DNA of 64,000 bases from Halorussus vallis (lineage in GTDB: Archaea > Halobacteriota > Halobacteria > Halobacteriales > Haladaptataceae), in NCBI RefSeq assembly GCF_024138165.1, contig NZ_CP100001.1, positions 372,001 to 436,000 on the forward strand, read 5' to 3'. The notes beneath the pieces were generated by a model. The model did not search any database and was not told the origin of the DNA. It saw only the letters and a list, made by a program, of their open reading frames with translations. Of the stretch, positions 27,430 to 61,574 are shown in pieces. A program made the translations under genes and the position numbers. Every line of letters begins with the position of its first letter. Positions within the stretch are counted from its first letter, which is position 1.

Positions 27430-27533
27430 GGTCGGTCGATTCGCAAGAGCCAGGCGACAGTCCCCCGGCGTCGTTTCCGTCGGTCGGCGAACCCGCCAGC
27501 GAACTCACGGTCGTGCGACATTCTGCCACACCC

Positions 27534-45922: not shown

Positions 45923-46756
45923 TCAGCGCCCGAGAATGCGCTGGGGGTTGTCGACGGTTATCTTCTCCACGAAGTCGTCGCTCACGTCCTGTGACGCGAT
46001 GGCGTCGAGGTTCTCGGCGGTGCTCGGCGTGGTCGGGTAATCGGTACCGAAGATGACGCTATCCTCGAACCGTCCGATTTCGGGGAAGTACTTGGAAGTG
46101 AGGCGATGCGGCGGGATGCCGGACAGTTCCAGATAGAGGTTGTCGTGGCGGCGCACCAGGTCTTCGGCCTGCTCGTACCACGCGGGTCGACCGCCGTGGG
46201 CCATGACGACCGTGAGGTCGGGGAAGTCAACGAGCACGTCCTCGATCGGGAGCGGGGTCGCGTACTTCGTCCGCGACCCCTCGAAGACGCTCGACCCGAC
46301 GTGGAACATCACGGGAACGTCGAGGTCGGCGGCCGCCGCGTACAGCGGATAGACGTGGTTCTCGTTCGGACTGAAGTACTGGTATGAGGGGTAGAGTTTC
46401 AGTCCCCGCATGCCGGCGTCGACGAGTTCCCGCAACCGCCGGACGGGCCGGAACTGCGTGTTCGGGTTGATCGACGCGAACGGAATCAGTCGCTCGCTCC
46501 GGTCGGCGTACCGGAGCACGTACTCGTTCGGCACGTCGATGTCGACGCGCGGCGTCTCGTGTGCGAGGACGACCGCGTACTCCAATCCCGCCTCGTCGAG
46601 CGCCGCTTCGACTGCACGTTCGGGAATCTCGCCTTCGTCGACGAACGTCTCGTACACTTCCGGGTTGAATCGCTCCATCAGGTCGTGAATCTGTTCGTTG
46701 AACTGCTCCGGCCGTCCGACGTGGACGTGGAAGTCGAGTCCTTCGACGTCGCTCAC
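45923..46756 (-). CDS. Amidohydrolase family protein (Amidohydro_2 type)
   Basis: 277 residues, TIM-barrel metal hydrolase. The N-terminal metal motif is DFHVHVG (His10, His12), followed by GMRGLKLYPSYQYF, PVMFHVGSS and VVMAHGGRPAW (further His) and a late Asp in IFGTDYPTTPS. These match the ACMSD/2-pyrone-dicarboxylate-hydrolase-like branch, whose members decarboxylate or hydrolyse ring-cleavage products of aromatic compounds. It lies at the edge of the molybdenum-hydroxylase region, separated from it by the Sph/RdfA pair. Confidence 0.85.
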   Translation of the reverse strand: MSDVEGLDFHVHVGRPEQFNEQIHDLMERFNPEVYETFVDEGEIPERAVEAALDEAGLEYAVVLAHETPRVDIDVPNEYVLRYADRSERLIPFASINPNTQFRPVRRLRELVDAGMRGLKLYPSYQYFSPNENHVYPLYAAAADLDVPVMFHVGSSVFEGSRTKYATPLPIEDVLVDFPDLTVVMAHGGRPAWYEQAEDLVRRHDNLYLELSGIPPHRLTSKYFPEIGRFEDSVIFGTDYPTTPSTAENLDAIASQDVSDDFVEKITVDNPQRILGR

Positions 46757-46835: not shown

Positions 46836-48782
46836 TCAGATGTCGGTGATTCGCGGATACGCGTCGTCGAGCGGTTCGGCGTCTTCGGGCAGGAGCGCCA
46901 CGACGAGATGGGGTGCGTACGTCTCGAAGTAGTCGACGAGCGCGGCGATGCGTTCGGGGTCGATGGCTTCGAGCGAGTCGAGGAGCATGAACGGGACGGT
47001 CCGGTACACTTCGTGGGCGAGATACCCCGCGAGTCCGAACACGAGTCCCGTCACCTCGCGCTCGGATTCGCTCAGGTGGTCGACCGTATCCTCGTACGCC
47101 CGTCCCTCCGGCGTCGTCCGGACCACGTGCAGGTCGAACGTGGTTTCGTCGACGCGACGCCTCCCCTTCTGGACGGTTTCGTCGCGCCGTTCGATCCAGA
47201 TACGTTCGAGGTTCCCGTATTCGAGGATGTCGAGCAACTCGTCCATGTGCTCGTTGAACGCCGTCACGGCCTCCTCTTCTATCCTCCCGATACGCTCCCG
47301 GAGTTCGGTGAGGTGCTCGCGAACCCGTTCGCGCTCGGCTTCGATTCGGGGAATCTCCTCGAGGTCGGACTCTATCGACTCGATTTCGGCCTCCGTCTCC
47401 TCGAGGTCGGACTCGATCCGTTCGGCCTCTAGTTCCAGTTGGCTCGCGCGCTTGCTCAGTTCGAGGATTCGGTCGTCGGAGTCGTCCCGGCGCAACTCCT
47501 CTACGGTTTCCTCCAGGGTCGCGACGCGGTCGGTCAACTCCTCTCGACGGTTCCTGAGGTCGTCAATACGCTCGCGGCGCTGTTCGATCTGATCGTCGAT
47601 TCGTTCGAGTTGATGTTCGATCTGCTCGCGGCGTTGCTGACGCTTCTCGACCGTCTGTTTCTCCTCGCGAAGGTCGTCCAACTGCGAGGACGCCTCCTTG
47701 CGCTGGGAGAGCTTCTCGCGGTGGAGTTCGCGGAGGTCCTCCACCGTCCGTTCGACCTCCCCGCGCTCGACGTGCGACCCGCACGTCCAGCAGACGAGTT
47801 CCGTGTCCTCGGCGAGCAACTGTGCGCTTACGTGCTCGTCGTTCTCCGGGACGAGCGCCTCCCGAAGCTCGGAATCGCTGCCTTCGAGCACCTCCTGGTT
47901 GAACTTGATGATGTTCTGAAGCTGGTCGAGTAGCGAGTCGAGGGTCCGCTTTCGCTCCCGTAGCTCACCGATTCGGTGACCGAGGTCGCTGATCTCCTGA
48001 ATCGAGGTCGGAAGTTCTTCTCGCTCTTCCCGGAGTTCCTCGCGCTCTCCCTTCAACGACTCCAACTGTTCTCGCTCCGAGTCGAGTCGCCGCCGCGTCT
48101 TTTCGAGGTCGCTGCGGGCGTCGCCGAGTTCGCTCAACCGCTCTTCGACCTCGGCCCGCTGTTCTCGCGTCTCGTCGACGCCCGCGTCGAGCGTTTCGAT
48201 CTCGTCTCTCAGCGCCTCGAGTTCCTCGCGCTTGGCCGACAGGGACTCCCGCAGGGAGGCCCGTTCCCGTTCGAGTTCCGGGAGACGCTGTTCCCGCGAC
48301 CGGCACCGCTCCAGTTCCTCGTCGAGTTCGTCCTTCTCCCGCTCCGCTTCCCGAATCTGCCTCTCGACGTCCGCCGTGTCGACGGGACGCATGATCACGT
48401 CTCGCAGGTCGTCGCCCCGGGCGACCGCACGGCGGGCCTCGTTGTCCTCGAGGAGGAAGGCGAACAGTTCCGCCGGAGTCGCGTCCGACAGGTAGGGTGA
48501 ACCACCGGCCCTGACCGTCCCGTCCTCGCGGACGAACGTTCGGACGTAGGTTTCGTCCCCGATGGTGAGTTCGACCCGGCCCCGGTCGGCGTCGCCCTTC
48601 AGCACGTCCTCATCGCTGCCGAGCGCCGCCTTTATCGACCGGAGAAAGGAGGTCCTGTTGGTCGCGTTCCGTCCCTTGAGGACGGTGACGCCCGGGACGA
48701 GTTCCACCTCCGTCTCGTCGATCCCCCCGATGTTCCGTACCGAAACGGAGGCTTCCGTTTCCACCGCAGTGCTCTGGTTCAT
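46836..48782 (-). CDS. sph: Archaea-specific SMC-related protein (Sph-like)
   Basis: 648 residues from MNQSTAVETE; the longer frame upstream overlaps non-coding DNA. ATPase head halves at both ends flank two long coiled coils (about 138-300 and 340-545) joined by a zinc-hook-like CWTC (331-334), as in Rad50. The P-loop reads GRNATNRTS (37-45), with Arg where Walker A normally has Lys; this is typical of the Sph family as I remember it. Signature LSESE (570-574); Walker B ends LLDS, with Ser replacing the catalytic Glu. ATP hydrolysis may be weak or absent. It is paired with rdfA upstream. Confidence 0.85.
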   Translation of the reverse strand: MNQSTAVETEASVSVRNIGGIDETEVELVPGVTVLKGRNATNRTSFLRSIKAALGSDEDVLKGDADRGRVELTIGDETYVRTFVREDGTVRAGGSPYLSDATPAELFAFLLEDNEARRAVARGDDLRDVIMRPVDTADVERQIREAEREKDELDEELERCRSREQRLPELERERASLRESLSAKREELEALRDEIETLDAGVDETREQRAEVEERLSELGDARSDLEKTRRRLDSEREQLESLKGEREELREEREELPTSIQEISDLGHRIGELRERKRTLDSLLDQLQNIIKFNQEVLEGSDSELREALVPENDEHVSAQLLAEDTELVCWTCGSHVERGEVERTVEDLRELHREKLSQRKEASSQLDDLREEKQTVEKRQQRREQIEHQLERIDDQIEQRRERIDDLRNRREELTDRVATLEETVEELRRDDSDDRILELSKRASQLELEAERIESDLEETEAEIESIESDLEEIPRIEAERERVREHLTELRERIGRIEEEAVTAFNEHMDELLDILEYGNLERIWIERRDETVQKGRRRVDETTFDLHVVRTTPEGRAYEDTVDHLSESEREVTGLVFGLAGYLAHEVYRTVPFMLLDSLEAIDPERIAALVDYFETYAPHLVVALLPEDAEPLDDAYPRITDI

Positions 48783-48904
48783 GGTTTCGTGTTGATGTCG
48801 TAGTTCTAAAACTCTAACTCCCTTCCGGGTAGTGATACTGACTAGCATGGGCTCCGGGCTCGGGCGCTCGGTCGACGGTCGAACGCGGCGACGCGTCGGT
48901 CCGG

Positions 48905-49537
48905 CTATCCGGTCAGTTGGCAGTCGCAACCGCCCTGTTCGAGCAGTTCCGTCACGTCATGAAGCGCGCCGCACGACTCGCAGGTGACCCGGAGGTTCAC
49001 GAACACCTCGAACTCCTCGAGCGCCAACTCGTCGCCGTCGCGTAGCCGAGAGAGCGAATCGACCGTGACGGCTTCGGCCCGACTCCGCATCTTGTTCACT
49101 CGACTTCGCTCCTTGTCGGTCGAGAGGGTTCGCGTCCCCTTCTCGGCGCCGAGGCAGTTGCGGAGGTGTCGATACACGGTCTGGTGGGAGACGAACTGCT
49201 CCTCCACCCGTTCGACGTCGACCCCGTTTTCGTCTAGGACCGACCGCGCGCGTAGCCGCTCGGCTTCGAGCGTGTCGTCGTCGGTCAGGAGCGCGTAGAA
49301 GTTCTCGACGCACCCCTCGATGAGTTCCATCCCCTCCGCGCGCATCGCCGCACGGAGGAGTCGGCGATTGAACCGGTCGGCGAGACTGCGGACGCTCTCC
49401 TCCTCCCGCCGCTCGCCGGTCCAGCGCTCGACGAGGTCCGCGTTCGCACGTCGCAGGTCGTACGCGTCGACGAGCGAACCGACCTTGCAGGTGCAGTCGG
49501 GTTCGGCCTCCAGACGTCCGTTCGTGGGTTCGGTCAT
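48905..49537 (-). CDS. rdfA: RdfA-like rod-determining factor
   Basis: 210 residues. N-terminal CTCKVG and a helical HTH-like stretch (SVRSLADRFNRRLLRAAMRA) precede ARSVLDENGVDVERVEEQFV, SHQTVYRHLRNCLG and a C-terminal cysteine region (VTCESCGALHDVTELLEQGG, CDC) that may bind zinc. RdfA of Haloferax volcanii is needed for rod-shaped cells and is encoded beside an Sph protein, as here. The Sph gene follows 122 bases downstream on the same strand. Because haloarchaea often hold several such pairs, this one may be a paralogue with a different role. Confidence 0.8.
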   Translation of the reverse strand: MTEPTNGRLEAEPDCTCKVGSLVDAYDLRRANADLVERWTGERREEESVRSLADRFNRRLLRAAMRAEGMELIEGCVENFYALLTDDDTLEAERLRARSVLDENGVDVERVEEQFVSHQTVYRHLRNCLGAEKGTRTLSTDKERSRVNKMRSRAEAVTVDSLSRLRDGDELALEEFEVFVNLRVTCESCGALHDVTELLEQGGCDCQLTG

Positions 49538-49559: not shown

Positions 49560-49577
49560 TACAGGTGTATGTATGTA
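49560..49577. promoter_or_regulatory. TACA-N10-TGTA dyad upstream of coxG
   Basis: TACAGGTGTATGTATGTA, followed by ACG. It ends 23 bases upstream of the TATA box. The same TACA-N10-TGTAACG arrangement occurs at 58670-58687. Confidence 0.4.
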
Positions 49578-49600
49578 ACGAAGGCCGGTCGGCGTCCAAA

Positions 49601-49610
49601 CTTTTTTAAA
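49601..49610 (+). promoter_or_regulatory. TATA box of the coxG-like gene
   Basis: CTTTTTTAAA, preceded by CAAA. Similar CAAACT(C)TTTTA elements precede both acyl-CoA ligase genes. The distance to the ATG at 49642 is 31 bases. Confidence 0.6.
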
Positions 49611-49641
49611 GCACTTCGCTGTAACTGTGAACGACATCACC

Positions 49642-50100
49642 ATGGAAGTCACTGGCGAACGCACCATCGACCAGACTCCGGACCGTCTCTGGGACACGAT
49701 ACTCGACCCCGACACGCTCGAACAGACGATTCCCGGCGCACAGAGTCTCGAACAGGACGGTGACGTGTACGAAGGGACGCTCGAACGCGGCCTCGCTGGA
49801 ATCTCGATCGAACTCTCGGCGACCGTCGAGGTCACGGACGAGGACCGCCCCGACTGGATCGACTGCGACATCGAGGGGACGGACAACACCATCAACAGCC
49901 GTGTCGACGGGCAGGCTCACGTCGAGTTCGAGGAGGCGGACGACGGGGCGACGACCCTCGTCTACGAAACCGACTTCGACTTCTCCGGAAAGCTCGCATC
50001 CCTCGGTTCCCGGATCATCAAGCGGAAGGTGAACAAGGACCTCGACACCTTCTTCTCCAACCTCGAGGAGCACGTCGAGGAGCAGGAAGCCGCCGCGTAA
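49642..50100 (+). CDS. coxG: CoxG/SRPBCC family protein
   Basis: 152 residues from the ATG at 49642 (MEVTGERTIDQTPDRLWDTI); a GTG at 49627 would add five residues. The SRPBCC (START-like) fold shows in PDTLEQTIPGAQSLEQDGD, YEGTLERGLAGISIELSATV and LVYETDFDFSGKLASLGSRI. CoxG proteins are encoded with Mo-CODH-type hydroxylases; in Oligotropha CoxG recruits the enzyme to the membrane. Here it heads the molybdenum hydroxylase region, and its promoter resembles those of the two ligases. The bacterial C-terminal membrane helix is missing. Confidence 0.82.
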   Translation: MEVTGERTIDQTPDRLWDTILDPDTLEQTIPGAQSLEQDGDVYEGTLERGLAGISIELSATVEVTDEDRPDWIDCDIEGTDNTINSRVDGQAHVEFEEADDGATTLVYETDFDFSGKLASLGSRIIKRKVNKDLDTFFSNLEEHVEEQEAAA

Positions 50101-50152
50101 TCCGCCTCATCGATTTCTTTCTCCGGTTCAGTTGTGTTAACGATACCCAAAC

Positions 50153-50161
50153 GTTATATTA
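50153..50161 (+). promoter_or_regulatory. TATA box of the BenE-like gene
   Basis: GTTATATTA lies 22-30 bases before the ATG at 50183, implying a leaderless mRNA. A TACA-N6-TGTA sequence (about 50160-50173) follows it. Confidence 0.6.
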
Positions 50162-50182
50162 CATTGTTTTGTATGACAGACC

Positions 50183-51469
50183 ATGGCGAGAGGGCCATTA
50201 GCAGATGTAATAGAGAGTGGACCGGGCTTCAGAAGCGGTCTCGCCGACTTCGGCGAGTACCTCGACTTGAACAAGGTGGGGTCGGGCCTCACGGCGGCCA
50301 TCTTCGGCTGTACCGGTCCGGCGCTCATCATCCTACAGGCGGCTTCCAAGGGGAACCTCTCGGACGCGCAGGCGACGTCGTGGTTGTTCGCCATCTACGT
50401 CCTCGGAGGAATCATCACGTTGGGGATGGCCCTCTACTACAAACAACCGATCATGGGGGCGTGGACGATTCCCGGCGCGGTGATGGTCGGCCTCGTCCTC
50501 GCCGACTTCAACCTGGCTCAGGCGGCCGGGGCGTACTTCGTCTCCGGCTTACTCGTCTTCCTGGTCGGAATCTCGGGGACGTTCCGGAGTGTAGTCGAGT
50601 ACCTCCCGCGTCCCATCATCATGGGAATGATCGCGGGCGTCCTCATCGGCTTCACCATCGACATCGTCAACTCCATCGCGGAGGCGCCGCTCATCGCCGG
50701 TATCGCCTTCCTGGGTTACCTGGCGTTCTACCGCGCGGTACCGAGCGTGCCCGGCATCGTCGGCGCCATCCTCCTCGGTGGGGTCGCGGCGTTCTGGCAG
50801 GGAGCGACGGCACTGTCGGACGTGACGTTGCGCATCGCCACGCCGATTCTCGTCGCGCCCGCGTTCTCGGTCGAATCCATAGTCACCATCGCGCTTCCGC
50901 TGACCATCATGGTCATCGGCGCTGAGAACATGCAGGCCATCGGCGTGCTCCAGGCAGAGGAGTACGACCCGCCGATAAACTCGATGCTGATATTCAGTGG
51001 TCTCGGCGGTATGCTCGCTAGCCTCATGGGCGGCCACAACGCCAACATCGCGGGTCCGATGACCGCGGTCACCAGTAGCGACGAGTCGGGCTACCCGAAG
51101 GAGGGTCGCTACGCCGCGTCGGTCGTTGGCGGCCTCCTCTTCGGCGGCTTCGGCTTCATCGCGGCCGCGGCCACCTCCATCGTCAACGCCATCCCGAGCG
51201 TGCTGATATCGCTGCTGGCCGGCGTCGCGATGATCAGCGTGCTCATCAGCGCGTTCGAGGAGTCGTGGGTTGAGTCCGACCGCTACCGATACGGCGTGTT
51301 CTTCGCGCTCATCATCGGGATGTCGGGCGTCTCGTTCTACGACATCGGAGCGCCGTTCTGGTCGCTCGTCGGCGGCGTGTTCGTCTCGCTCGTCCTCGAA
51401 CCCGACGACTGGGAGTTCCTGCGCTCGTCAAGCGCGACGACCGAGGAATCGCGCTCGGTCGACCAGTAG
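50183..51469 (+). CDS. BenE-type benzoate/proton symporter-like permease
   Basis: 428 residues with about eleven or twelve membrane helices. SGLTAAIFGCTGPALIILQA at the start, TIPGAVMVGLVLADFNLAQA, PLTIMVIGAENMQAIGVLQA and MGGHNANIAGPMTAV match the BenE family, a branch of the nucleobase-transporter fold whose characterised member takes up benzoate with protons. It follows coxG after 82 bases but has its own promoter. It probably imports the aromatic or heterocyclic substrate of the downstream enzymes (inference). Confidence 0.85.
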   Translation: MARGPLADVIESGPGFRSGLADFGEYLDLNKVGSGLTAAIFGCTGPALIILQAASKGNLSDAQATSWLFAIYVLGGIITLGMALYYKQPIMGAWTIPGAVMVGLVLADFNLAQAAGAYFVSGLLVFLVGISGTFRSVVEYLPRPIIMGMIAGVLIGFTIDIVNSIAEAPLIAGIAFLGYLAFYRAVPSVPGIVGAILLGGVAAFWQGATALSDVTLRIATPILVAPAFSVESIVTIALPLTIMVIGAENMQAIGVLQAEEYDPPINSMLIFSGLGGMLASLMGGHNANIAGPMTAVTSSDESGYPKEGRYAASVVGGLLFGGFGFIAAAATSIVNAIPSVLISLLAGVAMISVLISAFEESWVESDRYRYGVFFALIIGMSGVSFYDIGAPFWSLVGGVFVSLVLEPDDWEFLRSSSATTEESRSVDQ

Positions 51470-51501
51470 ATATAATACCGGCTGGACGGTCACTACCACC
51501 C

Positions 51502-52380
51502 GTGACGTCGAGTGACTCCGGGTCGATCGACCAGCTGGTACAGGGTGCGGTGGACACGCACATGCACACGGCACCGGGTGCGTTCCCCCGCCACGACACC
51601 GACTTTTCGGCCGCGCGCACGGCGAAAGAGCACGGCATGCGCGCCATCGTGACGAAGAATCACCACTTCGAAACAGCTTCGCGCGCACAGAACGTGCGCG
51701 ACGAGGTCGGGTTCACCGTCCTCGGCGGCATCACGCTCAACGAGTGGGTCGGCGGACTCAACCACCACGCCGTCGACGGCGTCGCCAACTTCGACGCCGA
51801 CATCGTCTGGATGCCGAGCATCACGGCGGCGAACCACCTCGAAAACGCCGCGGTGCAGATGTTCGAGACCGAAGAGCAGGAGAAGGCCGGGATTTCGGTC
51901 CTCGACGAGGACGGCGAACTGACGATCGAGACGCTGGCGGTCCTCGACAGCATCGCCGAACACGGCCTCGTCGTCGGACTCTCGCACCTGAGCCCCGAGG
52001 AGGCCATCGCGCTCGTCGACGAGGCGACGAGTCGGGGCGTCGAGGAGTTCCTCGTCCAGCACCCCCACGCCGAGTTCCTAGACTACTCCCACGACCAGAT
52101 GCGGACGATAACCGACCTCGGGGCGACGCTGGAGTTCCACTACATATGCACGAGCGAGATGATGGGCAACGCCGCGACCGTCGACGACTTCGTCGCGGCC
52201 GTCGACGCCGTCGGCCCCGAGAACGCCGTCATGGCGACCGACGGCGGTGCGACCGCGAACCCGCCCGCGATGGAACAGTTTGAGAGTTTCATCGGCGACA
52301 TGCTGGACGCCGGCGTTCCGGAAGCCGACGTGGAGACGATGGTCAAGGACAACCCGAAGCGAATCTTCGACCTCGACTGA
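51502..52380 (+). CDS. DUF6282 amidohydrolase-like protein
   Basis: 292 residues from a GTG. VDTHMHTAPGAFPRHDTDFS has the HxH metal motif of amidohydrolase/PHP-like barrels. Other likely ligands lie in VTKNHHFETAS, GLSHLSPEEA and VQHPHAEFLDYSHDQM, with a late Asp in AVMATDGGATANPP. The C-terminus VKDNPKRIFDLD resembles that of amidohydrolases. Members have been catalogued as DUF6282 without a known reaction. It begins 32 bases after the BenE-like gene, so it is likely co-expressed and may hydrolyse a ring or amide in the same pathway. Confidence 0.78.
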   Translation: MTSSDSGSIDQLVQGAVDTHMHTAPGAFPRHDTDFSAARTAKEHGMRAIVTKNHHFETASRAQNVRDEVGFTVLGGITLNEWVGGLNHHAVDGVANFDADIVWMPSITAANHLENAAVQMFETEEQEKAGISVLDEDGELTIETLAVLDSIAEHGLVVGLSHLSPEEAIALVDEATSRGVEEFLVQHPHAEFLDYSHDQMRTITDLGATLEFHYICTSEMMGNAATVDDFVAAVDAVGPENAVMATDGGATANPPAMEQFESFIGDMLDAGVPEADVETMVKDNPKRIFDLD

Positions 52381-52485
52381 CGGCCGCTACCCGGCCGAAG
52401 CGCCGACGGCGCGCCGCATCTGGTACGCGGAACCGGTACCTATTTACCCGCGGCAGGGATGATTGATACTGTTCGAGGTTAACAG

Positions 52486-52899
52486 ATGTCAGCCGAAGTA
52501 GACCGCGAGATGGAAGAGTACTTCGAGTCGATGCCGTTCCTCCGGAACATCGGCATCGAGAACGCCGTCGTCGAGGACGGGACTGCGGAGTTCCACGTCC
52601 CGTACGACGAGAAGATAACGAACCACACCGTCGTCCACGGCGGCGTGATGGCGACCCTCGTGGACGCGACCGTCGCGGGTGCGATCCACAGCGACGCCGA
52701 GGCGCCCCTCGACGAGATGGAACCGCTGACCATCGACATGGACGTCAACTACCACGCGCCGGTGACGGAGGGCGACATCGTCGCCCGGGCGAACCTCGTC
52801 AAGCGCGGCGGGACGATAGCCGTGGGGGAAGCCGAGGTCACCAACGAGGGCGACCTCGTCGCGTCCGGCACCGCGACGTACTTCCAGAAGTGGAGATAG
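52486..52899 (+). CDS. PaaI-family hotdog thioesterase
   Basis: 137 residues. The hotdog-fold signature NHTVVHGGVMATLVDATVAG (catalytic Asp in LVDAT) and MDVNYHAPVTEGDIVARANL are typical of PaaI/YbgC-like acyl-CoA thioesterases. It hydrolyses acyl- or aroyl-CoA and would release CoA from dead-end products made by the neighbouring ligases, as PaaI does in phenylacetate degradation. It lies between the DUF6282 gene and ligase 1. Confidence 0.87.
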   Translation: MSAEVDREMEEYFESMPFLRNIGIENAVVEDGTAEFHVPYDEKITNHTVVHGGVMATLVDATVAGAIHSDAEAPLDEMEPLTIDMDVNYHAPVTEGDIVARANLVKRGGTIAVGEAEVTNEGDLVASGTATYFQKWR

Positions 52900-52930
52900 C
52901 CCGAACGCGACCGATACCCGGCCGACACAC

Positions 52931-52943
52931 CAAACTCTTTTAG
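52931..52943 (+). promoter_or_regulatory. TATA region of acyl-CoA ligase 1 (shared motif)
   Basis: CAAACTCTTTTAGACGGTTC (52930-52949) precedes the ATG at 52976 by about 35-45 bases. Nearly the same sequence, CAAACTTTTTAGATGGTTC, precedes ligase 2. Confidence 0.65.
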
Positions 52944-52975
52944 ACGGTTCGACCACTCTCTGCGTGTGAACACCG

Positions 52976-54556
52976 ATGAACATGGGACAAGTGTTTGCAC
53001 GGGCCACGGACAGATACCCCGAGTCGACCGCGCTCGTGGACCCGACGGCCGACGTCCGATACACCTACCGAGAGTGGTACGACCGGGCGTTCGCGGTGGC
53101 GGCCGCACTCTCCGAGCGCGGAATCGGAGAGGGCGACCGCATCGCGACCGCGATGCGCAACCGGGCTGAGCTGGCGACGCTCTACTGCGCGACCCAACTG
53201 CTCGGTGCCGTGTTCGTCCCCTACAACTTCCGCACCTCGCCGACCGAACTCGCGTTCCTCGTGAACAACGTCGAACCGGCGGCGCTCGTCTTCTCGGAGG
53301 CGACCGCCGACAGCGTCGCGGCGGGCCGCGAGGAGTTCCCGAACGGGACCGACTTGCTCGCGCTCGACGAAACTCCGTCGTTCGCAGAGTCGTACGAGTC
53401 GTACCTCGACCGCCGGGACCCCGAGTTCGAACCGTCGTTCGTCGACCCCGACCGGACCAGCCTGATACTCCACACCGGCGGCACGACGGGTCGGCCGAAG
53501 GGCGTCCCGCGGAGTCACCGCAACACCTACGCCGCGGCCGTCGCCCACGCGATCCAGACCTCCTGGTCCCAGCGCGAGGCGACGCTCGGGTTGATGTCGC
53601 TCGCCCACACCATGGGAATCCACGCGCTTGCCGCCGTCCTGGTCCTGGGCGGCAAGTGGGTCACCCAGCGGGAGTTCTCGGCGGCCGCCACCCGTGACGC
53701 CATCCGGTCGGAGGGGGTCACCAGTCTCTACCTGGTTCCGACCGTCTACCACGACCTGGTCGAGTCACCCTCGATAGCCGACGCCGACGTATCGAGCGTC
53801 CGGAACGTCGCGTTCGCCGGCGCGAGCATGAGCACGACCGACATCCGCGCGGTCGCCGACCAGTTCGAACCGGAGTCGTTCGTGAACCACTACGGGAGCA
53901 CGGAAGTGTACTCCCACGCGGTCTGCGAGCGACTACTGGAAAAGCCGGGGTGCATCGGGCGGGCGGCCATCAACACGCGCATCAGGGTGGTCGAACCGAG
54001 CGAGTTCGGCGACCTCGACCCCGAGGCCAGGGTCGACTCCGGCGAGGTCGGCGAGATCATCGTCGACGCCTCCTCTCCGGAGGCGTTCGACGGCTATCTC
54101 GGGGCCGACGACGACCGCACGCTCGTCGACGGGTGGTTCTTCACCGGCGACTTGGGCTACCGCGACGCCGACGGCGACCTCTTCATCATCGGCCGCATCG
54201 ACGACATGATAATCAGCGGCGGCGAGAACATCTACCCCGTCGAGGTCGAGAGCGTCCTCGAATCCCACGACCTCGTCCGGGAGGCGGCGGTCGTCGGTCG
54301 CCCGAGCGAGCGCTGGAACCAGACGGTCGCGGCGTTCGTCACAGTCACCGCCGCGTCGGGCGACGTGGACTTCGAGTCGGCGGTCGCCGAACTCGACGAG
54401 CACTGTAGGCGGAGCGAGGGTCTCGCGAACTTCAAGCGCCCGCGCAAGTACTTCTTCATCGACGAACTCGCCAAGAGCAACGTTGGCAAGATTCTTAGGA
54501 AAGAGTTACAAAAGAAGGAGTTGGACATCAACGTACACGCGGAAGTGGATGTGTAG
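52976..54556 (+). CDS. Acyl-CoA ligase 1 (class I adenylate-forming enzyme)
   Basis: 526 residues; an in-frame ATG at 52982 is also possible. ANL-superfamily motifs: P-loop LHTGGTTGRPKGVPRSH, A5 NHYGSTEVY, A7 FFTGDLGYRDADGDLF, A8 GRIDDMIISGGENIYP and the catalytic Lys in KSNVGKILRKEL. It would activate a carboxylic acid with ATP and CoA; an aromatic acid is likely from context but not readable from the sequence. It is a paralogue of ligase 2, and parts of the two genes are identical at the DNA level. It immediately precedes the hydroxylase subunit genes. Confidence 0.9.
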   Translation: MNMGQVFARATDRYPESTALVDPTADVRYTYREWYDRAFAVAAALSERGIGEGDRIATAMRNRAELATLYCATQLLGAVFVPYNFRTSPTELAFLVNNVEPAALVFSEATADSVAAGREEFPNGTDLLALDETPSFAESYESYLDRRDPEFEPSFVDPDRTSLILHTGGTTGRPKGVPRSHRNTYAAAVAHAIQTSWSQREATLGLMSLAHTMGIHALAAVLVLGGKWVTQREFSAAATRDAIRSEGVTSLYLVPTVYHDLVESPSIADADVSSVRNVAFAGASMSTTDIRAVADQFEPESFVNHYGSTEVYSHAVCERLLEKPGCIGRAAINTRIRVVEPSEFGDLDPEARVDSGEVGEIIVDASSPEAFDGYLGADDDRTLVDGWFFTGDLGYRDADGDLFIIGRIDDMIISGGENIYPVEVESVLESHDLVREAAVVGRPSERWNQTVAAFVTVTAASGDVDFESAVAELDEHCRRSEGLANFKRPRKYFFIDELAKSNVGKILRKELQKKELDINVHAEVDV

Positions 54557-54582
54557 TCATCCGAACCCGTACGGAGATTCGC

Positions 54583-55464
54583 ATGTATCCAAGCCAGTTC
54601 GAACACGTTCCGGTCGACAGCGTCGACGACGCGGTCGCCGCGCTTCAGGAGTACGAGGACGCGGAGTTGCTCGCGGGCGGTCAGAGCCTCGTACCGTTGC
54701 AGAAGACGCGGTTCGCGTCCCCCGACTATCTGGTCGACATCACTGGAATCGAGGAGCTACAGTACGTCGACGACGCGGGCGACGCAGTGGAAGTCGGGGC
54801 GCTCGCCAGTCACACCCAGATACAGCGGGCACAACCCGTCAAAGACCACGTCTATCTCTTCAGCGAGTGCATCGGCCAGATCGCCGACTGGCCGGTCCGC
54901 AACCAGGGCACGTTCGGGGGAACGGTCGCCGAGGCCGACCCGTCCGGCGACTACCTGCCCGTCCTCCAGATTCTCGACCCCGAAATCACCCTCGTCGGAC
55001 CCGACGGCGAACGGACCGTCCCGTTTGAGGAGTTCTACCTCGGGATGTTCACCGTCGACATGGAGGAGGGCGAACTCATCACGCGGGCCCGCCTGCCCAA
55101 GTTGACGCCGTCGTCCGACGCAGCGGGAATCGGCAGCACCTACAAGAAACACGCAGAGCGCTCCGGCGACTACGCGCTGGCCAGCGTCGCGGCCATCGTC
55201 GAGGTCGACGATGCGGGTGACGTGACCGACGCTCGACTGAGCGTCGGCGGTGTCGGCCCGCTGACCCGCCCGGAAGAGGCCGAGTCGCTCGTCGAGGGGA
55301 CCGACCTGGACGACGACGTCCTCGCGGAGGCCGCCGCCGCCGTCCGGGAGGCGGTGCTCCCAGACGAGGAGGGGCCGGAGGGCGACTACAAGGAGGCGAT
55401 GGCTGGAGAGTTCACCGAACGAGCACTCGAAACCGCGTACGAACGCGCGACCGAAAGCATATGA
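54583..55464 (+). CDS. coxM: FAD-binding medium subunit of a molybdenum hydroxylase (CoxM type)
   Basis: 293 residues. FAD-binding motifs are AGGQS (31-35) and TFGGT (110-114), followed by the CO_deh_flav_C domain (about 180-285). It passes electrons between the iron-sulfur subunit and an acceptor. It has only one Cys (SECIG) and no extra iron-sulfur insertion, so it is not like the beta subunit of 4-hydroxybenzoyl-CoA reductase. The stop overlaps the next start (ATGA), so it is part of a tightly coupled three-gene set. Confidence 0.9.
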   Translation: MYPSQFEHVPVDSVDDAVAALQEYEDAELLAGGQSLVPLQKTRFASPDYLVDITGIEELQYVDDAGDAVEVGALASHTQIQRAQPVKDHVYLFSECIGQIADWPVRNQGTFGGTVAEADPSGDYLPVLQILDPEITLVGPDGERTVPFEEFYLGMFTVDMEEGELITRARLPKLTPSSDAAGIGSTYKKHAERSGDYALASVAAIVEVDDAGDVTDARLSVGGVGPLTRPEEAESLVEGTDLDDDVLAEAAAAVREAVLPDEEGPEGDYKEAMAGEFTERALETAYERATESI

Positions 55465-56117
55465 GCAAATCCGAACCCACGACCACCGTGACGGTGACCG
55501 TAAACGGCGAAGAGTACGTCAAAGAAACCGAGGACCGGAAACTTCTGGTCCACTTCCTCCGGGAGGACCTCGGCCTCACCGGGACCCACCAGGGGTGCGT
55601 CGTCGGCAAGTGCGGGGCCTGCACCGTCCTCCACGACGGGACGCCCAAGAAGTCGTGCATGCTGTACGCCGCCCAGATTGACGGAGACGAGATCACGACC
55701 GTCGAGGGTCTCGCCGACATCGCCGAGGCGGAGGGTAACGAGATGGAGACCCGCGACGGGGCGACGCTCCACCCGCTCCAGATGGGGTTCAAGCGGAATC
55801 ACGGACTCCAGTGCGGTTTCTGTACGCCCGGGTTCCTGATGACGTCGTACGCGCTCCTGCAGGAGAACGAGGACCCCGACGACGACGAGATTCGGTCGGC
55901 CCTCTCGGGCAACATCTGTCGGTGCACCGGGTACAACTCGATCGTCGAGAGCGTCGAGTGGGCGGCCGCGGAACTCGCCGGAGCAGACGACGGGGCCGGC
56001 GGGAGCGACGGAAACGAGGACGGCGCGGTTTCGACCGATGGCGGATTCTCGACCGACGGCGCCGCCGGTGGGTGTCCCTGTCGCCGCGACTACCCGACGG
56101 GAGGTGACGGCGAGTGA
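55461..56117 (+). CDS. coxS: 2Fe-2S small subunit of a molybdenum hydroxylase (CoxS type)
   Basis: 218 residues against about 165 usual. The plant-ferredoxin-type cluster is bound by Cys46, Cys51, Cys54 and Cys66 (GCVVGKCGAC); the second cluster by Cys118, Cys121, Cys153 and Cys155 (QCGFC, CRC). After the normal end at about residue 170 there is a Gly/Asp-rich extension of some 48 residues ending GGCPCRRDYPTG, with an extra CPC. That tail is not part of the known fold and is odd. The gene overlaps its neighbours at both ends. Confidence 0.9.
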   Translation: MSKSEPTTTVTVTVNGEEYVKETEDRKLLVHFLREDLGLTGTHQGCVVGKCGACTVLHDGTPKKSCMLYAAQIDGDEITTVEGLADIAEAEGNEMETRDGATLHPLQMGFKRNHGLQCGFCTPGFLMTSYALLQENEDPDDDEIRSALSGNICRCTGYNSIVESVEWAAAELAGADDGAGGSDGNEDGAVSTDGGFSTDGAAGGCPCRRDYPTGGDGE

Positions 56118-58567
56118 GCGAGTCGGTTCCGCAGGAGTCCGAGGAGGCCGACGAGTCGGACGCCGGATACGTCGGCGAGACGTTCGGGCGCCGCGAGGAC
56201 GACCGACTCGTCCGCGGCGAAGGGAAGTTCATGGACGACTTCGACCCCGTCGGGAACCTCCACCACCTCGCGTTCCTGCGCTCGCCGCTCGCACACGGGA
56301 CGATCGAGTCGATCGACACCGAGGCGGCGGAGGCCCGCGACGACGTGCGGTGCGTCCTGACCGGCGCAGACGTCGCCGAGCGGATGGATCCGTTCGCCGT
56401 CGGCGTCCAGAACCCGCCGGAGTACTACCCGATGGCCGTCGACAAGGTCCGGTACGACGGCGAACCCGTCGCCGCGGTGGTGGCGACCAGCAAGTACGCG
56501 GCCAAGGACGCCCTGGAGGACGTCGAAGTCGAGTACGGCCGACTCGACCCGGTCACGGACGAGATGGAGGCCCTCCAGAGCGACGCGCCGCAGCTCCACG
56601 AGGACGGTAACCTCGCGAACGAGCGGACGCTCAAGTACGGCCCGGTCGAGGAGGCGTTCGAGGAGGCCGACCACGTCGTCGAGTCGGAGTTCGAGTTCCC
56701 CCGATACACGAGCGCCCCGCTGGAAACCTACGGCGTCATCGCCGACTACGACCGCGGGCGCGACACCGCGACCGTCTGGTCGAACTTCCAGGGTCCGTTC
56801 ACGATGCACCCCGTCGTCGCCGGCGCGCTGGGGATGGCCGAGAGCGACCTCCAGTTCAAGGTCCCGGCCGACAGCGGCGGAAGTTTCGGCATCAAGGCCC
56901 ACATCTACCCCTACATCGCGGCGACCGTCGTCGCGTCCGAACTCGCGAAGGTCCCCGTCAAGTGGATCGAGAGCCGGCGAGAGCACCTCCGCGCGAGCGC
57001 CTGTCACACCGACCGGGTCCAACGGATGCGCGGGGCGGTGACCGACGACGGCGACATCCTCGGCGTCTGGGTCGAACTGTACGACAACTTCGGCGCGTAC
57101 GTCCGGGCGCCCGAACCGGGCAACACGTTCCGGCCGCTCGCGAACTTCGTCAACACCTACGACTTCGACGCGTTCGGCGGCGACTTCTACGCCGTCCAGA
57201 CCAACAAGTGTCCGGCCGGCCTGAACCGCGGCTACGGCTGTCACCAGTACTACTTCGGCCTCGAACGCCTCGTCGACCAGATGGCCGAGGCGGTCGACAT
57301 GGACCCGACCGAGTTCCGGTCCCGGAACTTCATCGACGCCGACGAGTTCCCCTACGAGACGCCGACCGGCGGCGAGTACGACAGCGGACGCTACGCCGAG
57401 GCGCTCGAACGCGCGAAGGAGTTGTTCGACTACGAGGCGTACCTTGACCGCCGGGAGGAGGCCCGGGAGGACGGCCGGTACGTCGGCATCGGCTGTGCGG
57501 GCATCGTCGACCCCTCCGCGTCCAACATGGGGTACGTCTCGGTGGCGCTCTCGCCCGAAGACCGCTCGAAGTCCCACCTCAAGTCGGGGGCCGCCAGCAC
57601 GGTCACCATCCAGATGCAACCCGACGCCAGCCTCGTGGTCGAACTCGACTCCGCGCCGAGCGGCCAGGGCCACGAGACGACCGCGTCCCAAATCGTCGCC
57701 GACGAACTCGGCGTCGAACCGGAGGACGTGAACGTCATCGCCGGCATGGACACGACCGAAAAAGCTTGGAGCATCTCCTCGGGGTCGTACTCGTCGCGCT
57801 TCGGAACCGCCGGCCACAGTGCCGTCCAGAAGACCAGCGAGAAGGTGGGCCGGAAGATGAAGCGCATCGCGGGCTACCTCCTGGATGTCGACCCGTCGAC
57901 CCTCGAACTCCGGGACGGCCGCGTCCACGCCCCGGACGACGACTCGGTTTCGGTCAAGCGTGTCGCCGGGACGGCCCACTGGAACCCCGACCACCTGCCG
58001 GAGGGCGAACAACCCGGAATCTACGAGCACCACACCTACAGCGTCGCCGACTCGAAGCCCATCGGCGATGACGACACCATCAACTCCTCGGGGACCTACG
58101 GCTACGGCATCCAGCTCGTGGCGGTGGAGGTCGACGCCGTCACCGGAGAGATAGAGGTCCTCGACTACGTCGCGGTCCACGACAGCGGCACCATCGTCAA
58201 CCCCCAGATCGTCGAGGGACAGATCGAGGGCGGCATCTTCCACGGGTTCGCCGGCGCGCTCTACGAGGAACTCGAGTACGACGACACCGGCACGCTACAG
58301 GCCGACACGTTCATGGACTACGCGGTTCCGACCGCGAAGGAGGTGCCGGAGATAGACACCGACCACCTCGAAACGCCGTCGCCGAAGACGCCGCTCGGCT
58401 CGAAGGGCACCGGCGAGGCTGGGACCGAGGCGGCGCCCGCGGTCATCGCCAACGCCGTCGACGACGCGCTCGACCCCGCTGGGGTCGAGATAACGAGCCT
58501 CCCGCTCCGGCCCCAGAAGATTTGGTCGCTCCTGCGGGACGCCGACTCGGCCGACTCGGAGTCGTAG
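56114..58567 (+). CDS. Molybdopterin-binding large subunit of an xanthine-dehydrogenase-family hydroxylase
   Basis: 817 residues from a GTG overlapping the coxS stop. The two Ald_Xan_dh_C domains are clear: GRREDDRLVRGEGKFMDDF, PVAAVVATSKYAAKDALEDV, then the Mo-pterin regions GSFGIKAHIYPY and SGQGHETTASQIVADELGV. The active-site Glu is Glu768 (GTGEAG). In the substrate loop where form I CODH has AYxCSFR and form II AYRGAGR, this protein has GLNRGYGCHQ (about residues 366-376). It is therefore probably not a CO dehydrogenase; the substrate is likely an aromatic or N-heterocyclic compound. Confidence 0.88.
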   Translation: MSESVPQESEEADESDAGYVGETFGRREDDRLVRGEGKFMDDFDPVGNLHHLAFLRSPLAHGTIESIDTEAAEARDDVRCVLTGADVAERMDPFAVGVQNPPEYYPMAVDKVRYDGEPVAAVVATSKYAAKDALEDVEVEYGRLDPVTDEMEALQSDAPQLHEDGNLANERTLKYGPVEEAFEEADHVVESEFEFPRYTSAPLETYGVIADYDRGRDTATVWSNFQGPFTMHPVVAGALGMAESDLQFKVPADSGGSFGIKAHIYPYIAATVVASELAKVPVKWIESRREHLRASACHTDRVQRMRGAVTDDGDILGVWVELYDNFGAYVRAPEPGNTFRPLANFVNTYDFDAFGGDFYAVQTNKCPAGLNRGYGCHQYYFGLERLVDQMAEAVDMDPTEFRSRNFIDADEFPYETPTGGEYDSGRYAEALERAKELFDYEAYLDRREEAREDGRYVGIGCAGIVDPSASNMGYVSVALSPEDRSKSHLKSGAASTVTIQMQPDASLVVELDSAPSGQGHETTASQIVADELGVEPEDVNVIAGMDTTEKAWSISSGSYSSRFGTAGHSAVQKTSEKVGRKMKRIAGYLLDVDPSTLELRDGRVHAPDDDSVSVKRVAGTAHWNPDHLPEGEQPGIYEHHTYSVADSKPIGDDDTINSSGTYGYGIQLVAVEVDAVTGEIEVLDYVAVHDSGTIVNPQIVEGQIEGGIFHGFAGALYEELEYDDTGTLQADTFMDYAVPTAKEVPEIDTDHLETPSPKTPLGSKGTGEAGTEAAPAVIANAVDDALDPAGVEITSLPLRPQKIWSLLRDADSADSES

Positions 58568-58669
58568 TCACCGCCCTTCTTTCTCGAATAAACGTCGGGT
58601 GTGTCACTCCGAACGCGAACTGGTCCATCGTTGTTGCCTTATCTGCCAATCCTCCATTCCCCGCTATAT

Positions 58670-58687
58670 TACAAACGTACGGATGTA
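58670..58687. promoter_or_regulatory. TACA-N10-TGTA dyad upstream of acyl-CoA ligase 2
   Basis: TACAAACGTACGGATGTA, extending to TTACA...TGTAA. It lies 43 bases upstream of the TATA element and matches the spacing of the coxG dyad. Confidence 0.45.
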
Positions 58688-58729
58688 ACGCAATTCCCGG
58701 AACGCCGGTCGTCGCAGTTATCGAACACA

Positions 58730-58740
58730 AACTTTTTAGA
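58730..58740 (+). promoter_or_regulatory. TATA region of acyl-CoA ligase 2 (shared motif)
   Basis: AACTTTTTAGA followed by TGGTTCGAGCA, near-identical to the ligase 1 promoter. Confidence 0.65.
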
Positions 58741-58784
58741 TGGTTCGAGCATTTGCTATACCGACACGGTAGGACGAGTTAGCT

Positions 58785-60374
58785 ATGCACATGGGCAGAG
58801 TATTTCATCGAACTGTGGAACGGTTTCCGGAACGAACCGCGGTCGTGGACCGAGACGAGGGGGTGAGATACACGTACGAAGAGTGGAACGACCGGGTGAA
58901 TCGGCTCGCGTCTGCGCTGGCCGACCGCGGCGTCAGACCCGGTGATCGGGTCGGGGTGGTGATGCAACCGCGAGTTCAGGCCGGAACCGTCTACTGGGCG
59001 CTCCAGAAGGTCGGGGCGGTGTTCACGCCGTACAACATCCGCGCCGCCGCCGACGAGATCGAGTTCCTCGTCGGGAACACTGAACCGGAGTTCCTGTTCT
59101 ACTCGTCGGTCGCGCGCCGGGCGGTCGACAGGGCCCGTGAGAACTTCGAGACGACCGACCGACTGGTGTACGTCGACGAGGACGCTCCCGAGTACGCCGA
59201 GCGCTTCGACGATTTTCTCGCCGACGGTTCCCATGAGTTCGCCGTCGCCGACGCTGACTCCGACGCGACCAGCGTCATCCTCCACACCAGCGGTACCACC
59301 GGACGGCCCAAGGGCGTTCCGCGAAGCCACACGAACACCTACGCGGCGTCGACGGCCCACGCGATTCAGTCGCAGTGGACCGAGGGCGAAGTGACGCTCG
59401 GCCTCATGCCCATCTACCACACGATGGGGCTTCGGTCGCTGGCGACGACGACCATCCTGAGCGGCACCTGGGTCGCCCAGCGGTCGTTCTCCCCGAGACA
59501 GACGGCCGAACTCATCGAGTCCGAGGACGTCACCGGTCTCTATCTGGTGCCGACCGTGTTCCACGACCTGGTGAAGTCCGACGTCGCCGACCGCACCGAC
59601 TTCTCTAGCGTCGAACGCCTCGGCTACGCGGGGACGCCGATGACCGCCTCGGTCCAGCGGACCGTCCGCGAGACGTTCGAACCCAGTGTCTTCGTCAACC
59701 ACTACGGGAGCACGGAGGTGTACACCTACAGCACGTGCTCCTGGATCGACGAGAAGCCGGGGTGTGCCGGCCGTGCCGGAATCAACACCCGTGTCCGGGT
59801 CGTCAAGCCAGACCGCGACGGTACCGTCTCGCCGACGGAGACGGTCCAACAGGGCGAGCTCGGCGAGATCATCGTCGACGCCTCCTCTCCGGAGGCGTTC
59901 GACGGCTACCTCGACCGACCCGAGGCCGACGAGAAGTCGTTCAACGAAGGCTGGTACTTCACCGGCGACCTGGGCTACCGCGACGAGGACGGCGACCTCT
60001 TCGTCTCGGGGCGCGTCGACGACATGATAATCAGCGGCGGCGAGAACATCTATCCCGTCGAGGTCGAGAACACCCTCGACGACTGCGAGGAGGTCGAGGA
60101 GGTCGCCATCGTCGGCCTCGACGACGAGCGCTGGAACCAGGTGGTCACGGCGTTCGTGACGCCGACCGAGTCCACCGACGCGGTCGACTTCGCCGCGCTC
60201 GCCGACTACCTCGACGGCCACTGCCGGGAGAGCGACGACCTCGCGAACTTCAAGCGGCCGCGAAAGTATGTCTTCGTCGACGAGATCGTCAAGAGCAACG
60301 TCGGGAAGATTCTGCGCCGGGAACTCGTCCTCGACGACCTCGACGTGGAGGTCCACGCAGAAGTCGACGTCTGA
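58785..60374 (+). CDS. Acyl-CoA ligase 2 (class I adenylate-forming enzyme)
   Basis: 529 residues. Same motifs as ligase 1: LHTSGTTGRPKGVPRSH, NHYGSTEVYTY, YFTGDLGYRDEDGDLF, GRVDDMIISGGENIYP, and Lys in KSNVGKILRREL. Residues just after the GSTEVY motif differ (TYSTCSWIDEKPG against SHAVCERLLEKPG in ligase 1), so the two may act on different acids or at successive steps. It is transcribed from its own promoter after the hydroxylase genes, and its stop converges on xdhC. Confidence 0.9.
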   Translation: MHMGRVFHRTVERFPERTAVVDRDEGVRYTYEEWNDRVNRLASALADRGVRPGDRVGVVMQPRVQAGTVYWALQKVGAVFTPYNIRAAADEIEFLVGNTEPEFLFYSSVARRAVDRARENFETTDRLVYVDEDAPEYAERFDDFLADGSHEFAVADADSDATSVILHTSGTTGRPKGVPRSHTNTYAASTAHAIQSQWTEGEVTLGLMPIYHTMGLRSLATTTILSGTWVAQRSFSPRQTAELIESEDVTGLYLVPTVFHDLVKSDVADRTDFSSVERLGYAGTPMTASVQRTVRETFEPSVFVNHYGSTEVYTYSTCSWIDEKPGCAGRAGINTRVRVVKPDRDGTVSPTETVQQGELGEIIVDASSPEAFDGYLDRPEADEKSFNEGWYFTGDLGYRDEDGDLFVSGRVDDMIISGGENIYPVEVENTLDDCEEVEEVAIVGLDDERWNQVVTAFVTPTESTDAVDFAALADYLDGHCRESDDLANFKRPRKYVFVDEIVKSNVGKILRRELVLDDLDVEVHAEVDV

Positions 60375-60422
60375 CCGGACCTGCGGGCGGACCCCGGCGA
60401 CCCAGTCGACCGGACCGGCGGG

Positions 60423-61574
60423 TCAGTCGAACGCGTCGGTCCGCTCGTGAATCGGCCCCGCTCGGTTCGCCAGTCGGCCGCCGTCGCGCCCGTTACGAAC
60501 GGCGATGAGTTCGCTCACGATGCTGAAACCGACGGCGATCGGCTCGTCGCCGCCGATGTCGAGTCCGACGGGGGTCGCGATTCGGTCGAGCGCCGCCTCG
60601 TCGAGTTCCCGTCCGTCGGCTCGGAGGCGCTTGCGAACCTCGCGGAACCGCTTTCTGGGACCCATCAGTCCGACGTAGGGAACGCCCGCGTCCAGGAGAC
60701 TGTCGAGGGCGAGACTGTCGTCGAGGAGGTTGTGCGACATCAGGACGGCGTACGTGTGCGCGGGCGCGTCCACCAGGTCGCGGAGGTCGGCGGGACGGAC
60801 CACGGTCACCTCGTCGGCGGCCGGGAATCGGTCGGCGTCGGCGTGACCGCCCCGCGCGGTCGCGACGCGGACGCGGAACCCCGCCCGCCGGGCGAGCGAC
60901 GCGACCGGATTGATGTCCTCCTGCCCGCCGAACAGCAGGAGGTCCGGCGTCGGTTCCACGCCGTCGACGAACACCCGTACCGTTCCCTCGTCCGTCTCGA
61001 CGGAGGCGTACCCCGACTGGCGACTCTCGGCCTCGCCGTCCGAGCGGCCCAGACTCTGCCGGACGACGCCCGCCGGGAGCGAGGGTCTTCCTTCGTGGAC
61101 GCGCCCGGACTCGGTGACGACGCACCGGTCGCCGACCTCGACATTGGGGTCGGTCGACGTGACCGCGGTCAGCACCGTAGCGCTTCGTTTCGCGGCGAGT
61201 TCGTCGAGCGCCGGGTCGATGCTCGCGTCGACCGGTTCGACCAGCACGTCGATGACCCCGTTACAGCCCAGACCGAGTCCCCACGCGCCCTCGTCGTCGG
61301 TCAGGTCGTAGGTCGTCGTGGACGGGGCGCCGCTCTCGATGACGGATTTGGCGACCTCGATGAGCGGCCCCTCCAGACACCCCGCGGTGACCGCCCCTCT
61401 GCTGTCGCCGCCGGACTCGACGACCATCTTCGCGCCCGGCCGTCGATAGCCCGACCCTTCGACGTCGACGACGGTCGCGAGCGCGGCGTCGATGTCGTCC
61501 TCTCGGTATCGGCGTATCGTCCGATGGATGTCGGTACTGGTGGCACTCCACGGACTCTCGGCTGCGTCCATCAT
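60423..61574 (-). CDS. XdhC/CoxI family molybdenum cofactor maturation factor
   Basis: 383 residues from MMDAAESPWSATS (a second ATG follows at once). The N-terminal XdhC domain has GSGYRRPGAKMVVESGG, GAVTAGCLEGPLIEVA and LGLGCNGVIDVLVEP, with Cys residues thought to hold Mo cofactor. The C-terminal Rossmann part has LLLFGGQEDINPVASLARRA, VLMSHNLLDDSLAL and YVGLMGPRKRFREVRKRL. Relatives insert sulfurated Mo cofactor into xanthine-dehydrogenase-type enzymes, which fits its place at the end of the hydroxylase cluster, on the opposite strand. Confidence 0.88.
   Translation of the reverse strand: MMDAAESPWSATSTDIHRTIRRYREDDIDAALATVVDVEGSGYRRPGAKMVVESGGDSRGAVTAGCLEGPLIEVAKSVIESGAPSTTTYDLTDDEGAWGLGLGCNGVIDVLVEPVDASIDPALDELAAKRSATVLTAVTSTDPNVEVGDRCVVTESGRVHEGRPSLPAGVVRQSLGRSDGEAESRQSGYASVETDEGTVRVFVDGVEPTPDLLLFGGQEDINPVASLARRAGFRVRVATARGGHADADRFPAADEVTVVRPADLRDLVDAPAHTYAVLMSHNLLDDSLALDSLLDAGVPYVGLMGPRKRFREVRKRLRADGRELDEAALDRIATPVGLDIGGDEPIAVGFSIVSELIAVRNGRDGGRLANRAGPIHERTDAFD

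Follow-up and report, generated by a model that had tools for sequence, protein, structure and literature searches.

Within a 64,000-nucleotide stretch of the haloarchaeon Halorussus vallis (contig NZ_CP100001.1, positions 372,001 to 436,000; hereafter the window), an island of genes for a molybdenum (Mo) hydroxylase, two coenzyme A (CoA) ligases, a BenE-family permease, and a DUF6282 protein probably encodes a haloarchaeal version of the hmf pathway for degradation of 2-furoate, a plant-derived furan acid. It is most likely the known bacterial route, with the last two steps apparently carried out by different enzymes. The original prediction for this DNA had described an uncharacterised archaeal route in which an aromatic or heterocyclic acid is imported, activated to a CoA thioester, and hydroxylated, with DUF6282 as a possible later hydrolase. 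All ten genes that it named were present in the order, on the strands, and within the limits given, with CoxG to ligase 2 at 49627-60374 on the + strand and the XdhC gene convergent. Its outline of import, CoA activation, Mo-dependent hydroxylation, and later hydrolysis by DUF6282 stands. The pathway is not wholly uncharacterised, because its ligases, Mo enzyme, and BenE each indicate the bacterial hmf route.

In the proposed route, 2-furoate would be imported by BenE and converted to 2-furoyl-CoA by two HmfD-type ligases. An HmfABC-type enzyme with Mo, 2Fe-2S, and flavin adenine dinucleotide (FAD) subunits, matured by XdhC and CoxG, would hydroxylate C5 of 2-furoyl-CoA with water. DUF6282 would then convert the hydroxylated product, in its lactone tautomer (5-oxo-2-furoyl-CoA), to 2-oxoglutaryl-CoA, from which the PaaI-type thioesterase would free 2-oxoglutarate, a central metabolite. 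The substrate is likely furoate or a very close furan acid. Import of a heteroaromatic acid, as first predicted, is retained, and furoate leads over benzoate and nicotinate because of the hmf affinities of the ligases, the Mo enzyme, and BenE; those two acids were dropped as leading substrates, since the nearest homologs of the island proteins are found in hmf clusters.

In a phylogenetic tree, ligases 1 and 2 form one clade (support 100/100) nested inside HmfD, the furoyl-CoA synthetase. This tree places both island ligases as HmfD-type, and its topology indicates a haloarchaeal gene duplication as the origin of the pair; a second ligase is also present in hmf clusters of Bacillota. When coordinates were compared, the best bacterial plasmid matches listed for each ligase were in 22 of 22 cases the ligase beside an hmf Mo subunit, and the best solved relative of ligase 2 was a 4-chlorobenzoate CoA ligase. 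The best bacterial matches to the island BenE (44-50% identity) were the permeases of hmf clusters, and the BenE of Pseudomonas pseudoalcaligenes has been proposed as a furoate carrier (PMC6678421).

The Mo subunit shares a 100%-supported clade with HmfA (furoyl-CoA dehydrogenase), apart from CO and xanthine dehydrogenases. Its active-site Glu (GTGEAGT) is kept, and the AYxCSFR motif of aerobic CO dehydrogenase (CoxL, form I) is absent from it, the aligned stretch being GLNRGYGCHQYYF. The highest NCBIfam scores, for CO dehydrogenase (CODH) group 5 (492 bits, curated cut-off 950) and glyceraldehyde dehydrogenase alpha (489 bits, cut-off 790), were below the curated cut-offs. The equivalog cut-offs were also missed for the xanthine dehydrogenase XdhA models (377/780 and 357/916 bits) and for 4-hydroxybenzoyl-CoA reductase (358/995, 101/405, and 161/258 bits for the alpha, beta, and gamma models, respectively). 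In keeping with the original prediction, the trees, the missing motif, and these scores set the Mo subunit outside the CO and xanthine dehydrogenases, and a CO dehydrogenase identity was rejected on motif and score cut-off. In a careful tree, it branches near lineages from Acidobacteria, Rokubacteria, and a saline-water proteobacterium; in one of those Rokubacteria, an HmfE-like gene lies ∼47 bp upstream of the Mo-subunit match.

Bacterial relatives of the Mo subunit were sought in ∼85,000 genomes, and neighbors within ∼10 kb were examined for the best 80 bacterial loci. Among these, an HmfE-type crotonase was present at 60, an HmfD-type ligase at 58, BenE at 20, and UbiD at 18. Such clusters are called hmf here from gene content, and furoate function is published only for some relatives (Cupriavidus basilensis, Pseudomonas putida Fu1, and P. 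pseudoalcaligenes; PMC6678421). The closest bacterial plasmid relative of the Mo subunit (50% identity) is in a cluster on Geobacillus kaustophilus pHTA426 whose genes (UbiD, XdhC, MocA-like, Mo subunit, CoxG, FAD subunit, 2Fe-2S subunit, ligase, and HmfE-type crotonase) make up the hmf set. Clusters of the hmf kind with Mo-subunit relatives were also found in Priestia (with BenE), Dinoroseobacter, and Cupriavidus. The island 2Fe-2S subunit is 52% identical to that of the G. kaustophilus cluster, and in the hmf clusters of proteobacteria CoxG is a C-terminal fusion to HmfA.

The island was then sought in 391 haloarchaeal genomes, including that of the window (390 others). Orthologs of DUF6282 (82-85% identity) and of the Mo subunit (75-80%) were found in the same 4 other genomes, giving, with the window's own copies, five matches of at least 82% and at least 75%, respectively; no other genome in the sample has a Mo subunit at 75-80%. 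The four other carriers represent three genera and two families, none of them the family of the window. Based on gene calls over 15-20 kb around the matches, annotated records, and a ligase search, all five close islands contain BenE, DUF6282, PaaI, ligase 1, the FAD, 2Fe-2S, and Mo subunits, ligase 2, and CoxG. Gene order is largely kept, with the position of CoxG differing between islands, and PaaI is 81-85% identical in the four other loci. XdhC is also present in the close islands, except in genome G196, where it would fall beyond the stretch fetched. In three of the four other carriers, the island is borne by a named plasmid (pNVE500 in Natrinema versiforme, and plasmids in Halobaculum magnesiiphilum and H. 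roseum). In the 5.05-Mb genome of the window, it is on a 557-kb contig (C2). These data demonstrate that the archaeal gene island is conserved beyond chance, and the joint conservation of DUF6282 with this Mo subunit that the original prediction called for was observed.

HmfE was not found in any archaeal island, and its best matches genome-wide (at most 39% identity) are of the generic crotonase family, none of them inside the island. DUF6282 and PaaI are present in all five close islands, and neither is present at any of the best 80 bacterial loci. HmfE and the DUF6282-PaaI pair are therefore mutually exclusive across the close archaeal islands and these bacterial loci. In the published furoate pathway, 2-oxoglutaryl-CoA thioesterase activity is proposed for HmfE, and the opening of the 5-oxo-2-furoyl-CoA lactone has no gene assigned and is described as possibly spontaneous (PMC6678421). 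A later table of hmf genes names a putative hydrolase, hyd (PMC12064950), which may be the alpha/beta hydrolase seen in one Pseudomonas locus (L140). Because of this gene replacement and the fold of DUF6282, we infer that PaaI may stand in for HmfE and DUF6282 for a lactone hydrolase; each assignment is plausible, with our confidence somewhat short of even. PaaI, which had been predicted to rescue CoA, is better read as a product-releasing thioesterase in place of HmfE. PaaI was rejected as an ortholog of the hotdog protein of the Priestia cluster (no significant match). The island pathway works like hmf and is not counted as a full member, because HmfE was looked for and not found.

The AlphaFold2 model of DUF6282 (predicted local distance difference test score, 90.6) is an amidohydrolase-type (beta/alpha)8 barrel. 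Its neighbors in Foldseek and VIA-align comparisons (Z ∼19-21) are dipeptidases, a phosphotriesterase (PTE)-homology protein, and the PTE-like lactonases GkaP, SsoPox, and DR0930, with Z ∼19-20 to the PTE-like lactonases and Escherichia coli PHP. Differences in Z under 1 are ties in this method, so the fold cannot choose among lactone, amide, and ester substrates. Residues D18, H20, H22, K52, H54, H162, H187, and D247 are conserved in all DUF6282 members that cover them, and the HxH, two His, and Asp among them match the pattern of a metal-dependent hydrolase site, a feature of the amidohydrolase superfamily. DUF6282 is mentioned in no paper of the literature searched.

The best explanation of these results, which we hold with moderate confidence, is the haloarchaeal furoate pathway outlined above. 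A bolder reading, held with less than even confidence, is that DUF6282 is the founding member of a family of metal-dependent lactone hydrolases whose substrates are CoA-bound heterocycles, and that it opens the furan ring, a step without a proven gene, within the first archaeal furoate pathway. A more doubtful account than the best explanation overlaps it on the substrate and differs only in the last steps: the ring would open spontaneously or through the Amidohydrolase_2 protein encoded at 45923-46756, and DUF6282 would do something else, such as thioester or amide hydrolysis or detoxification of a side product. Bacteria do without DUF6282, for a step described as possibly spontaneous in the text cited above, and the Amidohydrolase_2 protein is 43% identical to those encoded next to the nearest bacterial Mo-subunit relatives (L066 and L067), above the 38% of its best haloarchaeal relative. 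An Amidohydrolase_2 gene also adjoins the SMC gene in three archaeal islands (the window, Natrinema, and the divergent island of genome G125). Against this account, DUF6282 lies between BenE and PaaI in all five close islands, and the Amidohydrolase_2 gene is absent from both Halobaculum islands. The ring-opening slot seems to be filled by different hydrolases in different lineages. That the same chemistry of CoA activation, C5 hydroxylation, and hydrolytic opening serves another five-membered heteroaryl acid (thiophene-2-carboxylate, pyrrole-2-carboxylate, or a substituted furoate) is unlikely. The sister position of the Mo subunit to HmfA, the two different HmfD-type ligases, the DUF6282-PaaI pair, and the clade relatives without HmfE could reflect such a substrate, whereas the ligases nest in HmfD and the best BenE matches are carriers from hmf clusters; none of the Mo subunits compared came from an enzyme with proven activity on thiophene or pyrrole carboxylates. 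Hydroxylation of benzoate, nicotinate, or another six-membered ring acid as its CoA thioester is very unlikely. The BenE family name and the 386-bit score of quinoline 2-oxidoreductase in the PDB search with the Mo subunit would fit it, but 4-hydroxybenzoyl-CoA reductase (235 bits) and nicotinate dehydrogenase (124 bits) score far lower there, and the closest homologs of the ligases, the Mo subunit, and the carrier are in hmf clusters. An island for aerobic CO dehydrogenase or a glyceraldehyde/aldehyde oxidoreductase would account for CoxG, XdhC, the two top NCBIfam models, and the best PDB match, a CoxL; it is nonetheless extremely improbable, with scores well below the cut-offs, NRGYGCHQYYF in place of the CoxL motif, and no role in CO oxidation for CoA ligases, a thioesterase, or BenE.

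Several observations weigh against furoate degradation by DUF6282 and PaaI as proposed. In the careful tree, the Mo subunit branches at the base as sister to HmfA instead of nesting in it, and so falls outside the strict hmf clade; among its nearest bacterial relatives are loci with neither HmfD nor HmfE (L064, L066, and L067). Two alphaproteobacterial Mo subunits (L106 and L107) are nested in the hmf clade, yet their loci have an unrelated ligase and no HmfE, so the substrate may have drifted within the clade. Between the FAD subunit and its G. kaustophilus counterpart, identity is only 31%. UbiD, of the furandicarboxylate route, was not found in this genome, and a UbiD-based furandicarboxylate branch here was rejected on that ground. 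For DUF6282, the fold matches dipeptidases and phosphotriesterases equally well. PTE-like lactonases have a carbamylated Lys on strand 4; a bridging Lys is not found there in DUF6282, in which the invariant Lys52 ends strand 2 of the model. The divergent haloarchaeal island in G125 lacks DUF6282, PaaI, and BenE within the 20 kb read, and the availability of Amidohydrolase_2 as a second ring-opening candidate lowers our confidence in DUF6282 as the lactonase.

The short intergenic gaps (26-105 bp, with ligase 2 starting 217 bp after the Mo subunit) and the 4-bp overlap at each junction of the FAD, 2Fe-2S, and Mo genes suggest that CoxG to ligase 2 form one operon-like transcription unit (Table 1).

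Table 1. Genes of the island and its flank, with positions in the window
Product	Position	Strand	Supporting match
CoxG-like (SRPBCC) protein, Mo-hydroxylase accessory	49627-50100	+	PF06240, 79 bits
BenE-family permease, putative furoate importer	50183-51469	+	PF03594, 262 bits
DUF6282 metal-dependent hydrolase, putative lactone hydrolase on 5-oxo-2-furoyl-CoA	51502-52380	+	PF19799, 207 bits
PaaI/hotdog thioesterase, putative 2-oxoglutaryl-CoA thioesterase	52486-52899	+	PF03061, 54 bits; TIGR00369, 68 bits
Acyl-CoA ligase 1, HmfD-type (predicted furoyl-CoA synthetase)	52976-54556	+	PF00501 + PF13193; tree
FAD subunit (HmfB-like)	54583-55464	+	PF00941, PF03450
2Fe-2S subunit (HmfC-like)	55461-56117	+	PF01799, PF00111
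Molybdopterin (Mo) subunit (HmfA-like)	56114-58567	+	PF02738, PF20256, PF01315; trees
Acyl-CoA ligase 2, HmfD-type	58785-60374	+	PF00501 + PF13193; tree
XdhC/CoxI Mo-cofactor maturation factor (PsfD-like)	60423-61574	-, convergent	PF02625, PF13478
RdfA-family protein, possible regulator or passenger	48905-49537	-, divergent from operon	PF21811, 222 bits
Archaea-specific SMC-related protein, RdfA partner	46836-48782	-	AAA_23
Amidohydrolase_2 protein, second candidate ring-opening hydrolase	45923-46756	-	PF04909

The divergent RdfA-SMC pair (46836-49537, - strand) belongs to the island, though it lies outside the limits first drawn, and the Amidohydrolase_2 gene probably does as well. The pair, on the opposite strand in the gene order of the window, adjoins the island in all five close loci and is linked to it in all six haloarchaeal carriers examined (the window, L033-L036, and L175). 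The SMC-related protein is 55-59% identical in the close orthologous loci and 47% identical in G125. These proteins are relatives of a Haloferax cell-shape pair (PMC10869688) and may act in regulation or plasmid maintenance. The G125 island has a Mo subunit (52-53% identity), a ligase (51%), an FAD subunit (57%), CoxG (45%), RdfA, and SMC, and it carries Amidohydrolase_2 and a metallo-beta-lactamase-fold protein. As the 20 kb read there contain no DUF6282, the idea that DUF6282 always accompanies this Mo enzyme was rejected.

On Natrinema versiforme pNVE500 (L033/L060/L187), one flank of the island has genes for UbiD, UbiX, a TAXI/TRAP carrier, a nucleotidyltransferase, and SRPBCC proteins, and the opposite flank has a thiolase gene paired with a nucleic-acid-binding (DUF35-like) gene, which suggests a wider range of furan or heteroaryl acids there. 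The Natrinema UbiD shares only 30-40% identity with HmfF, whereas bacterial HmfFs share ∼50% or more, so its support for a furandicarboxylate branch is weak. Elsewhere among the loci read, L106 and L107 possibly belong to a pathway for another heteroaryl acid. On contig C3 of genome G000 (239.5 kb), positions 8001-28000 and 218001-238000 (L053 and L054), near its two ends, are 99.98% identical over 19.8 kb. The contig is probably an untrimmed circular plasmid, and its two Mo-hydroxylase matches are therefore likely one locus.

More distant DUF6282 relatives were found in other settings. In one haloarchaeon (L046, G160:C91, 2381-10346), a DUF6282 protein of 31% identity is encoded beside another kind of Mo hydroxylase, whose FAD, 2Fe-2S, and Mo subunit genes have two additional genes among them; the cluster includes a tripartite carrier, and genes resembling CaiB and crotonase are close by. 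This is a second link between DUF6282 and Mo hydroxylases. At L047-L050, relatives of ∼30% identity adjoin genes for a protein of the UGSC family (PF24696, as tested in L049) and a 350-amino acid protein without a Pfam match, near acyl-CoA dehydrogenase-like and CoA-transferase-like genes. At L037-L041 and L043, relatives of ∼36% identity lie 3' of a large FAD-oxidase/4Fe-4S fusion gene and 5' of an Amidohydrolase_2 gene, in most cases near a nitrilase-family gene, MmgE/PrpD, and an ABC carrier, forming an uncharacterised conserved haloarchaeal catabolic cluster.

Furoate catabolism has been described in bacteria, and no paper of the literature searched reports it for archaea. If the proposed pathway is correct, haloarchaea would be able to degrade furans to completion in brine. 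They would start from furoate, furfural, or, in carriers with UbiD, possibly furandicarboxylate, a capacity that could be applied to saline lignocellulose or bioplastic streams. The pathway would also provide a concrete enzyme candidate for a furoate-route step still without a proven gene and a first function for DUF6282, a domain present in many bacteria and archaea.

Compared with known systems, DUF6282 resembles the PTE-like lactonases GkaP, SsoPox, and DR0930 in its amidohydrolase (beta/alpha)8 barrel, HxH, two His, and one Asp, and it differs from them in its low identity (∼15%), its conserved Lys on strand 2, and the presence of other DUF6282 members in unrelated catabolic clusters. The hmfABCDE pathway of Cupriavidus basilensis HMF14, P. 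putida Fu1, P. pseudoalcaligenes CECT 5344, and P. umsongensis GO16 lacks counterparts of the island's DUF6282-PaaI pair, second HmfD-type ligase, separate CoxG gene, and RdfA-SMC pair, and the island, which is archaeal and mostly plasmid-borne, has no HmfE and, in this genome, no UbiD. The two share a Mo/FAD/2Fe-2S hydroxylase, an HmfD-type ligase, an XdhC-type maturation factor (PsfD), and CoxG, with BenE present in several hmf clusters. The cluster on G. kaustophilus pHTA426 (L057) differs from the island in having HmfE, UbiD, MocA, an R2-like oxidase, and an MFS carrier and in having no BenE, DUF6282, or PaaI in the stretch read. Like the island, it has a separate CoxG gene, XdhC, an HmfA-like subunit (50% identity), and an HmfD-type ligase (42-48% identity) with a second related ligase nearby.

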